From: Bacillus sp. Cs-700
GTDB lineage: Bacteria; Bacillota; Bacilli; Bacillales; Guptibacillaceae
Assembly: GCF_011082085.1 (NCBI RefSeq)
Contig: NZ_CP041063.1
Location: forward strand, 4,078,001 to 4,142,000
Direction: 5' to 3'
Length of the DNA: 64,000 nucleotides
In this document: positions 3,763 to 61,379 of the stretch, in pieces
Position numbering within the stretch: the first letter of the stretch is position 1
How the letters are laid out: each line of letters opens with the position of its first letter
Notes under the pieces: model-generated
The model's input: the letters and a program-made list of their open reading frames with translations, nothing else
Database searches by the model: none
What the model was told of the DNA's origin: nothing
Program-made: the position numbers and the translations under genes

Positions 3763-4530
3763 TTGTTGAAATATTCCCTATGCATTGGAGCCTACCCAGG
3801 TGAGGATGTGATTACTCACCTGGAAAAAGTGAAGGATCATGGATTTCATGGGCTAGAATATTATGATTGGACGGAATTAAATCTGGAGGAAGTGGCTAAG
3901 GCCGAGAGGCGAATTGGCGTTGGAATTACGGCAACTTGTACGCGTTTTTTTAATTTAGTTAATCCGAAACTGCGAGAATCGTATCTTCAAGGATTATCAG
4001 AAACGATTGAAGCGTGTAAAAAACTTGGAACGCCGTCGATCATTACCCAAACGGGGAACGTGATGGTCGATACGCCCATTAGCATACAGCAAGAAGCGAT
4101 GGTTGAAACACTTAAAAGAAGTGCGGAACTATGTGAAAAGGCTGATGTTGTCCTTGAAGTTGAACCGTTAAATGGGCTTGTTGATCATGAAGGTCATTTT
4201 CTACAATATTCGGATCAGGCAGTGTCGATTGTCGATCAAGTGGATAGTCCACATGTAAAACTATTATTTGACGTATATCATCAGCAAATTACGGAAGGAA
4301 ATGTTACCCGTAACGCAACAAATTATTGTAACCGAATCAATCATTATCATATTGCTGATAATCCTGGACGTCATGAGCCGGGTACAGGTGAGTTGAATTT
4401 TGGGAACATCTTAAAAGCGATTAAGAAGACAGGCTTTGAGGGGTTTATTGGGCTCGAGTGCAACTACACAATTCCAACAGATCAAGCAATCGATTCGTTT
4501 AAGAAGACAATTTTACAGTCTGTTGAATAA
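3763..4530 (+). CDS. hydroxypyruvate isomerase-like TIM-barrel sugar isomerase/epimerase
   Basis: A 255-residue AP-endonuclease-2-type TIM barrel. Metal-ligand and active-site stretches expected for hydroxypyruvate isomerase are visible: VLEVEPLNG (catalytic Glu), LLFDVYHQQ (Asp/His ligands), YHIADNPGRHEPGTGELNF and the terminal GLECNY (Glu). The family interconverts hydroxypyruvate and tartronate semialdehyde in glyoxylate-type metabolism, although close homologues act on other 3-keto or ketose sugars. The start is one of two adjacent TTG codons at 3763 and 3766 after GAGGAG. It ends at an 18-bp bidirectional terminator shared with the rhodopsin gene. Confidence 0.8.
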   Translation: MLKYSLCIGAYPGEDVITHLEKVKDHGFHGLEYYDWTELNLEEVAKAERRIGVGITATCTRFFNLVNPKLRESYLQGLSETIEACKKLGTPSIITQTGNVMVDTPISIQQEAMVETLKRSAELCEKADVVLEVEPLNGLVDHEGHFLQYSDQAVSIVDQVDSPHVKLLFDVYHQQITEGNVTRNATNYCNRINHYHIADNPGRHEPGTGELNFGNILKAIKKTGFEGFIGLECNYTIPTDQAIDSFKKTILQSVE

Positions 4531-4540
4531 GCTACATAAA

Positions 4541-4585
4541 AAAGAGCGAGAAAGACGTTTTTGAAATACGTCTTTCTCGCTCTTT
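4541..4585. terminator. strong bidirectional terminator between convergent genes
   Basis: An 18-bp perfect stem (4541-4558 with 4568-4585) starting AAAGAGCGAG separates the isomerase gene from the convergent rhodopsin gene, with A/T-rich flanks on both sides. Confidence 0.9.
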
Positions 4586-4593
4586 CTTTAACA

Positions 4594-5274
4594 CTATCCT
4601 TTTATTTTTCGAAGACCATGAAGATCCAGAATGCCAAAGCCAACTTTTGAGAAGATTGGAAGAACGATAAACGCCAGTGTATCAATGATGCCTTTCGTTA
4701 GACCTACTCCTGATGCGCCAAAGAACCATGCCAACGGATAAAGCACCCAAAAAGATGTTAGATAAATGGCCATTCGCTTATAGTGCTTGGCAAGTTGGTC
4801 GCTTTCATGTGCCATTTTCTTAAGAGGGCCCCATATAATCCTTAATATGATTGCAAGGGCAACAAGCCCAAGACTATACCAGATGTATTTTAGCGAATCA
4901 GGTGAAAAATCGGCGATCAGTCCAGTTAAAATCATGAAAACGTCAGCTATAATCAGAGAAGCGATCAGTGTGCGGTTGATTTTCCTTTGGTAAAACATCG
5001 CGGTTAAGGCAAGTGAAAGGAGTAACAGGGGAGTAGAGACCACCCAATCTAAGTATCGTGCAAAGTAAATCGTTTTCTCTGGTCTTTCTAATAGCCCCTG
5101 ACCTAATGCAATGGATAAATAAGCGACTCCAGACCATCCTGTAATGACGATAGCGATCACATATTCATACAAAGGTACGCCCTTTGGTTTTCGACTTAGG
5201 AAATAAAAATAAATGGCGCTTGAGATCATCACGGTAAAATAAAAAATATGTAACGATGTATCGATTGAATTCAT
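4594..5274 (-). CDS. microbial rhodopsin of xenorhodopsin type
   Basis: A 226-residue seven-helix retinal protein. Helix C reads RYLDWVVSTPLLLLSLAL: Arg73, Asp76 (bacteriorhodopsin Asp85), Ser80 (Thr89) and Ser87 (in place of the donor Asp96). Helix G reads VLPIFSKVGFGILDL: Lys210 is the Schiff-base lysine, Pro206 replaces the otherwise near-universal Asp212, and Asp217 lies at the cytoplasmic end. Pro at the Asp212 site plus the helix-G Asp are hallmarks of Anabaena sensory rhodopsin and xenorhodopsins, known light-driven inward proton pumps; a Bacillus coahuilensis member has been described. The ATG follows AGGTGAA. No transducer, carotenoid or retinal-forming gene lies in the window, so retinal must come from elsewhere. 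Confidence 0.93.
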   Translation of the reverse strand: MNSIDTSLHIFYFTVMISSAIYFYFLSRKPKGVPLYEYVIAIVITGWSGVAYLSIALGQGLLERPEKTIYFARYLDWVVSTPLLLLSLALTAMFYQRKINRTLIASLIIADVFMILTGLIADFSPDSLKYIWYSLGLVALAIILRIIWGPLKKMAHESDQLAKHYKRMAIYLTSFWVLYPLAWFFGASGVGLTKGIIDTLAFIVLPIFSKVGFGILDLHGLRKIKG

Positions 5275-5332
5275 GTTTCACCTCACTAGCAAGTTGTGTT
5301 ATCCAGTATTGACATTGCAAAAGGATTTATTC

Positions 5333-5360
5333 AGATTAGTAGAGGCGCCCGTTGTGGCAA
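5333..5360 (-). promoter_or_regulatory. candidate promoter of the rhodopsin gene
   Basis: On the minus strand TTGCCA (5360-5355), a 16-base spacer and TAATCT (5338-5333) make a moderate SigA-type match about 60 bases upstream of the rhodopsin ATG. Confidence 0.35.
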
Positions 5361-40470: not shown

Positions 40471-41295
40471 ATGAAGGCTATTGTGCAAATGGCTAGTGAT
40501 CAAGTTTTGAATCGTAAAGAGTACATTGCAACAAAAATTACGAGTCAACAAAATAAAAACTATCCCACCGAGCTCAAAGATAAAACAGATGAGCTTTTTC
40601 CATTGCGTGTGGAATTGGTAACGATTTATGCAAAGTCACTCGCACTTCGAGAAGAGGAAGCAGAAAAAAGTATTGAAGCGTGGGGTGTAGAAACAGGAAG
40701 AATGTGCGCACGCTTAGGAACCACACTTGATTCGATGCTAGGAGAAGTACCACACTATCGCAAATACATAGGCGAGGTTTTAAAAGAAGTAGCCATTGAA
40801 CAACAAATAGGAATTGAAGAACTGTATGAGCTCATTTCTAAGCTTGATCATGCTATGAATTTAGTCGTTTATTATTTTAGTGTTCCGTTTGTTGAATACC
40901 AGACGAATTTGCTTGAACAGTCTAGAAACGAAATTCTTGAGTTATCAGCACCAGTTGTTCCAATCATGGAAGGCGTAGCGGTATTGCCTTTGATTGGAAC
41001 AATTGATACGTATCGAGCAAAGTTGATTATGGAAGAATCACTTAATCAAAGCGTCCGCCTTCATTTGAATTACTTTGTTTTAGATCTTTCAGGTGTTCCG
41101 ATTGTCGATACATTTGTCATTCAGCAGCTTTTTCAAATTATTGAAGCGCTTAGACTCGTCGGAGTGGAAGCGAGAATTAGTGGCATAAAACCAGAAATTG
41201 CATTATCAGTCGTTAAACTAGATATTAGTTTCAAAATGGTGAACACCTATTCGACGCTAAAGCAAGCACTTGCCGATTTAGTTATCCAATGCTAA
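40471..41295 (+). CDS. RsbR-type STAS domain protein (stressosome paralogue)
   Basis: A 274-residue protein with a helical, non-haem globin-like N-terminal sensor (residues 1-150) and a C-terminal STAS domain (about 158-270: LSAPVVPIMEGVAVLPLIGTIDT, LDLSGVPIVDT, SGIKPEIALSVVKLDI). Thr180 and Thr214 are spaced 34 residues apart like the RsbT-phosphorylated Thr171 and Thr205 of RsbRA. It should join the stressosome and tune SigB activation. rsbS/rsbT are not adjacent, as for orphan RsbR paralogues. A second paralogue lies at 60537-61379. Confidence 0.87.
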   Translation: MKAIVQMASDQVLNRKEYIATKITSQQNKNYPTELKDKTDELFPLRVELVTIYAKSLALREEEAEKSIEAWGVETGRMCARLGTTLDSMLGEVPHYRKYIGEVLKEVAIEQQIGIEELYELISKLDHAMNLVVYYFSVPFVEYQTNLLEQSRNEILELSAPVVPIMEGVAVLPLIGTIDTYRAKLIMEESLNQSVRLHLNYFVLDLSGVPIVDTFVIQQLFQIIEALRLVGVEARISGIKPEIALSVVKLDISFKMVNTYSTLKQALADLVIQC

Positions 41296-60386: not shown

Positions 60387-60536
60387 TTGTTTCCTGTATA
60401 ATTCTTTAAGATGGCATATTTCTGAACTGTCATCTATTTCAGTAAACCAAATGTTTTTACCAACTCTGGACAGGTGTACATTTCCCCGTTTTCGGGAAAC
60501 AATGAATTAACGATGACGATTAGGAGAGACATAACA

Positions 60537-61379
60537 ATGGATAAAGTTGAAACAATGTATGTCGAGTACTTTCATGAGCGTCTTGAAGAAATTGGAGAGA
60601 AATGGACAAAAAGGCTACAAATTCTTGTCGATGAAAAAGAAGCAACAGATACAGCCGTTCTTAAAGTACCAGAATTAAAAAAGGAAATTATTTTGTTCTG
60701 TTCTGATTTTGTTAAGCAGATGATTTTTCAAAGATCAAATACTCGAGATGTACAGGAATGGGCAGGAAGGATTGTTGAGATTTTTTCGAGCCACACGTTT
60801 TCTTTGCAGCAATCGGTTGCTAGCCTAACATACCTAAGACAAATTCTCTGGGATGTTATGGTGGAGTTTAGTTCAGAGCAGGAGCATCTAATTGAAGCGA
60901 GCCGACTAGCAGGATGGGGCAGTTACATGAACAAATCGTTCGATTTGTTGCTTCATAAAGTAACGGTCTACACAAATCAACTCAATGAAGAACAACTTGC
61001 GGCACAGCAGACAAAAATTACTGAACTAAGTGTTCCTATTATTCCAATCGCAAAAGATATTGGCGTATTGCCTCTTATCGGCACGATTGATACTTATCGC
61101 GCATCACTTATTCAACGAAAAGGCATCGAACGTAGCTCAGAACTTCAATTATCCTACCTTGTGATTGATCTATCAGGCGTTCCGATCATGGACACGATGG
61201 TAGCAAACGAAATTTTTCAACTCATTAAAATGCTAGATCTATCCGGCGTGGAATCCATTTTAACTGGCATACGACCTGAAATTGCTCAAACAGCCGTTCA
61301 GCTTGGTATTGATTTTACAAACGTAAATACTTACGCTCATCTTCATCAAGCACTAAGAGCTATTTTACCATCTTCTTAA
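60537..61379 (+). CDS. second RsbR-type STAS domain protein
   Basis: A 280-residue stressosome paralogue: N-terminal helical sensor (residues 1-155), C-terminal STAS (LSVPIIPIAKDIGVLPLIGTIDT, IDLSGVPIMDTMVANEIF, TGIRPEIAQTAVQLGID). Thr186 and Thr220 keep the 34-residue spacing of RsbRA phosphorylation sites. It is distinct in the sensor half from the paralogue at 40471, suggesting a different input to SigB. ATG at 60537 follows TAGGAGAG. Confidence 0.87.
   Translation: MDKVETMYVEYFHERLEEIGEKWTKRLQILVDEKEATDTAVLKVPELKKEIILFCSDFVKQMIFQRSNTRDVQEWAGRIVEIFSSHTFSLQQSVASLTYLRQILWDVMVEFSSEQEHLIEASRLAGWGSYMNKSFDLLLHKVTVYTNQLNEEQLAAQQTKITELSVPIIPIAKDIGVLPLIGTIDTYRASLIQRKGIERSSELQLSYLVIDLSGVPIMDTMVANEIFQLIKMLDLSGVESILTGIRPEIAQTAVQLGIDFTNVNTYAHLHQALRAILPSS

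Follow-up and report, generated by a model that had tools for sequence, protein, structure and literature searches.

The first natural inward proton pump to be described was PoXeR from Parvularcula oceani, and mutating four of its carboxylates (E35, D74, D108, and D216) cuts pumping (PMC5118547). BcXeR from Bacillus coahuilensis (PDB entries 7zmy, 7zn3, and 7zn0) is a proven inward proton pump that has been crystallized, and a hydrogen-bonded chain leads in this protein from the Schiff base past Ser211 to Glu34 (PMC13093656; PMC12002130). A third inward pump, NsXeR from Nanosalina (PDB 6eyu), has also been solved structurally. The change from Asp to Pro at the site of Asp212 of bacteriorhodopsin (BR) is a hallmark of xenorhodopsins (XeRs) (PMC3198991), and what inward pumps do for the cell is not known (PMC12002130). 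Here, we analyze a further member of this already known family, encoded in a window of 64,000 nucleotides, by which we mean the whole stretch of DNA under study.

Family assignment and organization of the gene

The product of the gene at 4594..5274 (minus strand) is a xenorhodopsin. It matched the Pfam family Bac_rhodopsin with 171 bits (E value of 3.5e-50), and a sequence search of the PDB returned BcXeR with 269 bits and ASR (Anabaena sensory rhodopsin, PDB 1xio) with 200 bits, all remaining structures scoring 110 bits or less. The AlphaFold2 model of the protein (pLDDT 93, pTM 0.89) contains seven helices and superimposes on BcXeR with an rmsd of 0.9 Å over 222 residues (Z of 35.3) and on ASR with an rmsd of 1.2 Å (Z of 33.4). 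The E values, dN/dS ratios of 0.05 to 0.12, and the confident fold rule out a chance match. We then placed the protein in a quick maximum-likelihood tree of 66 rhodopsins, in which NsXeR and BR form long branches and of which we relied on well-supported nodes only. It fell inside the XeR clade, together with ASR, BcXeR, and NsXeR (SH-aLRT of 97), and no placement outside this clade was seen. Within the clade, it belongs to a Bacillota group of 29 rows that also holds BcXeR (SH-aLRT of 96); this group excludes the alphaproteobacterial xenorhodopsins as well as ASR and its cyanobacterial relative.

The gene starts with ATG and encodes 226 aa, with seven predicted helices at residues 3-27, 35-56, 71-92, 101-123, 126-157, 159-185, and 196-223. 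A ribosome-binding site, GAGGTG, can be read from the sequence at 5279..5285 (minus strand). Farther upstream, a promoter-like pair (CTGAAT-18 nt-AATACT; 5305..5334, minus strand) is partly conserved in an alignment of seven members of the genus. Its match to the consensus is weak, and a promoter scan returned nothing on the strand of the rhodopsin gene and missed this pair as well. On the other side of the gene, a 21-pair hairpin with a trailing U-rich run (4538..4588, minus strand; -31.6 kcal/mol, z of -8.0) is common to the rhodopsin gene and the converging gene at 3763-4530. This hairpin is a bidirectional terminator, and we therefore read the rhodopsin gene as monocistronic. The gene stands alone, flanked by a converging sugar-isomerase-like gene and a divergent exonuclease gene, and a profile search found it to encode the only rhodopsin of the complete 4,297,839-base genome. 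Among named relatives, Pseudalkalibacillus hwajinpoensis AmN0-1 is the nearest, with a rhodopsin that is 96% identical, and the host is therefore a Pseudalkalibacillus species. Elsewhere in the window, 40471-41295 and 60474-61379 encode two proteins which, judged by eye, resemble RsbR-type stressosome paralogs with a STAS-like C-terminal region.

Functional residues and the proposed inward pump

We then analyzed the residues of the protein, whose codons all lie on the minus strand. Lys210 (4645..4647) in helix G is the retinal Schiff-base lysine, corresponding to ASR K210 and BR K216. According to the alignment, Pro206 (4657..4659; ASR P206) stands where BR has its second counterion, Asp212. 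Asp217 (4624..4626), in the cytoplasmic half of helix G, occupies the site of the cytoplasmic proton acceptor or release Asp (ASR D217, BcXeR D214, NsXeR D220) and is the counterpart of PoXeR D216 (PMC5118547). The Schiff-base counterion in helix C is kept as Asp76 (5047..5049; ASR D75, BcXeR D73, BR D85), and the donor site carries no Asp, since Ser87 aligns with ASR S86 and BR D96. Ser80 aligns with BcXeR S77 and ASR T79; the two inward pumps with solved structures, BcXeR and NsXeR, both have Ser at this position. The initial annotation had called the protein a candidate inward pump of the xenorhodopsin type on the basis of these six residues, taking the Pro at the Asp212 site and the helix-G Asp as marks of the clade and Ser as the donor-site residue. 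All six stand where it placed them and align as it described, and the Pfam match and the well-supported position in the XeR clade, in the group of BcXeR, agree with its assignment.

These residues bear directly on the possibility of an outward proton pump, to which the overall bacteriorhodopsin fold and the presence of rhodopsins with a DTK motif in the same order could lend some credit. We give this reading practically no weight, as the Asp at the BR D212 site is missing (Pro206), the donor site has neither a carboxylate nor Lys (Ser87), and the DTK rhodopsins branch far from our protein in the tree. The DTK rhodopsins, found in six of the 45 rhodopsin carriers of the order (L068-L072, L074), are a second type with Lys at the donor site, far from the XeRs and in hosts without Blh; the motif is of the kind found in the Exiguobacterium outward pump.

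The four carboxylates essential in PoXeR are all kept, as E37, D76, D111, and D217, judging by position and through aligned relatives rather than from PoXeR directly. Glu37 (5164..5166) corresponds to BcXeR E34, where the cytoplasmic water chain ends, and Asp111 (4942..4944), the putative equivalent of PoXeR D108, to BcXeR D107 and NsXeR E111. Asp111 is informative because nonpumping ASR and its cyanobacterial relative carry Gln at this site. A light sensor like ASR, photochromic and without pumping, acting through a soluble or unknown signaling partner, would fit the 46% identity to ASR, the shared DT/S-S motif, in which Ser occupies the donor site, and the lack of a known cellular role for inward pumps. 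We nevertheless regard a sensor as unlikely: BcXeR is closer than ASR by sequence, structure, and tree, Asp111 sets the protein apart from ASR and its cyanobacterial relative, a long C-terminal tail is absent, and no neighboring gene is conserved beyond the genus. The ASR transducer family ASRT (PF07100) was rejected as a partner, since it is absent from the host genome and, in the sole sister genome that has it, is unlinked, on a contig other than that of the rhodopsin gene. At the helix-G site of Asp217, the XeRs of two metagenome-assembled genomes from Clostridia/Bacillota (L022 and L027) have Asn or Val and are thus natural variants without the supposed cytoplasmic acceptor.

We propose that the protein is very probably a light-driven inward proton pump, a single-gene xenorhodopsin of the BcXeR group. 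This reading builds on the sequence, fold, clade membership, conserved residues, and selective maintenance of the protein itself, and we infer the transport direction, like the individual steps, from PoXeR, NsXeR, and BcXeR. Light would isomerize the retinal bound to Lys210. Pro206 at the site of BR Asp212 would leave the extracellular side with a single counterion, D76, and for this reason the Schiff-base proton would move toward the cytoplasm, through a chain of waters that ends at E37/D217. Reprotonation of the Schiff base would then come from outside, so that cytoplasmic release and outside uptake would together bring one proton into the cell per cycle. As for the gain of the cell, we can only guess at a light-triggered acidification or depolarization that is used for signaling or in controlling pH.

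A departure from BcXeR counts against the pump reading. Our protein keeps the Glu of the BcXeR chain (E37) but carries Gly214 (4633..4635) at the position of Ser211, where the L-state water chain of BcXeR reaches its cytoplasmic end; Gly is likewise found in the strong pump NsXeR. In the alignment, Gly214 and Thr45 (5140..5142) are the only residues that are fixed in all 11 sequences of the genus and yet differ from most other XeRs. Among the 33 other XeRs compared, the site of Thr45 is Pro in 32 and Val in NsXeR, and that of Gly214 is Ser in 29, with Gly occurring outside the genus in NsXeR and in three XeRs from metagenome-assembled genomes. By homology with BR P50 and G220, Thr45 (helix B) and Gly214 (helix G) would lie close to the Schiff base on its cytoplasmic side, along the proton path. 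Since NsXeR departs at both sites, with Val and Gly, the pair need not abolish pumping. Thr45 might replace the lost Ser hydroxyl, which is a guess on our part.

Distribution, selection, and retinal supply

What is new here is the occurrence of a XeR in 11 of the 14 sampled genomes of the genus, syntenic where checked and under purifying selection, with one decayed remnant. The same flanking genes were found in all six genus loci compared gene by gene, and the placement was also syntenic in two further genomes checked. In the three genomes without the rhodopsin gene, the flanking genes of the locus are still present, and one of them retains a frameshifted remnant of residues 1-40 at the syntenic site (L111 6553-6664). 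Because the flanks are in place and a decayed remnant exists among noncarriers, the ancestor of the genus probably had the gene, which was then lost several times; its loss from three of the 14 members also shows that it is dispensable, a further point against the pump reading. Of 397 genomes sampled from the order, 45 encode a rhodopsin above the curated cutoff, so that the initial annotation went too far in calling rhodopsins rare in Bacillaceae. Xenorhodopsin residues are present in 32 of these 45 carriers (11 in the genus and 21 elsewhere). No conserved neighboring gene was found outside the genus, where the flanks vary from genus to genus. Carriage by plasmids or phages was rejected, as plasmids held only distant rhodopsins (29 to 33% identity) and our search found none in phages. 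In the draft assembly of B. coahuilensis m4-4, the XeR gene is split by a frameshift (L036 5989-6677), which is either a sequencing error or a strain difference, the crystallized BcXeR being full length.

The absence of a transducer or retinal synthesis gene from the neighborhood, already pointed out in the initial annotation, holds and, for the known families, extends to the whole genome. Profile searches of the host genome detected neither Blh (PF15461) nor an RPE65-type carotenoid oxygenase (PF03055). Both families were missing from all 29 XeR-bearing Bacillota genomes (11 from the genus and 18 from elsewhere), among which Alkalibacterium has one subthreshold Blh fragment. Blh was found in 5/5 alphaproteobacterial XeR genomes, and the cyanobacterial XeR genome has three RPE65 genes. 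In the alphaproteobacterium Sphingomonas lenta (L050), the xenorhodopsin gene and blh are adjacent and converging, unlike in the bacilli. Across the order, none of the 397 genomes contained Blh above the curated cutoff, and the weak PF15461 matches below it were not counted as Blh. RPE65 genes occur in six of the 397, none of them rhodopsin carriers, which leaves 0/45 carriers with Blh or a carotenoid oxygenase.

The carotenoid cluster of the host encodes two desaturases of the CrtI/CrtN type and a synthase that scores best against CrtM (310 bits, versus 196 for phytoene synthase), which suggests, at the level of sequence, that the host makes C30 carotenoids. Some 5 kb downstream of this cluster lies a gene for a DUF817 membrane protein (L102 14569-15387; G000:C1:452568-453386), a possible lead to the source of retinal. 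Our searches for CarR-type and full-length CrtY-type lycopene cyclases found neither in the host genome. Weak PF05834 matches in bacilli were discarded as short N-terminal FAD-motif matches and not lycopene cyclases, full-length matches being confined to alphaproteobacteria.

With no Blh, RPE65-type oxygenase, or recognizable lycopene cyclase of the types searched, the protein may lack its chromophore in vivo, which also counts against the pump reading. Taken further, the gene might encode a vestigial opsin, expressed or not, that is never supplied with retinal in its natural setting and is being lost; its absence from three of the 14 genus members, one with a decayed fragment, would agree with this. 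We consider such a fate very unlikely, given that dN/dS is 0.05 to 0.12 in the genus pairs for which it could be calculated, that the retinal-pocket residues are intact in 11/11 genus carriers, and that the gene persists across many genera of the order. Moreover, it was already noted that some Firmicutes have rhodopsins yet lack blh and diox1, and one actinobacterium without known retinal genes holds endogenous retinal and a functional rhodopsin (PMC7734400); in the same study, retinal extracted from Aurantimicrobium was analyzed by HPLC-MS/MS. For an inward pump in this host, uptake of retinal from the surroundings is most likely, as the simplest reading. The combined proposal that the bacilli make retinal with an enzyme outside the known retinal-forming families, perhaps from C30 carotenoids or another precursor, and that the genus replumbed the cytoplasmic proton exit through Thr45 and Gly214 appears doubtful to us. 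Culturable bacilli with 11 carriers and three losers among 14 genomes and no known retinal pathway are convenient for testing both the role of the pumps and the way in which many rhodopsin carriers without retinal genes obtain their chromophore.

Comparison with characterized rhodopsins

ASR shares 46% identity and the same helix-G signature with our protein. It differs in that the wild type is nonpumping, in having Gln109 where our protein has Asp111, and in an operon that includes a transducer gene. NsXeR, at 31% identity, has in common the counterion, the Pro, the helix-G Asp, Ser80, and the Gly at site 214, whereas its His48, Phe44, and Trp73 are replaced by Ala41, Glu37, and Arg73. PoXeR resembles the protein in the four essential carboxylates and the Pro at the D212 site, according to residue numbers and alphaproteobacterial relatives; it has a DTL motif in contrast to D-S-S here and is probably a member of the alphaproteobacterial clade, in which the sampled hosts have Blh. 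BcXeR is the best relative of known structure. Its genome neighborhood is unlike that in the window, and its S211 and P42 are Gly214 and Thr45 here, but it falls in the same clade, with 60% identity and the rmsd of 0.9 Å, and its D73, E34, A38, T88, S77, P203, K207, and D214 are all matched in our protein.
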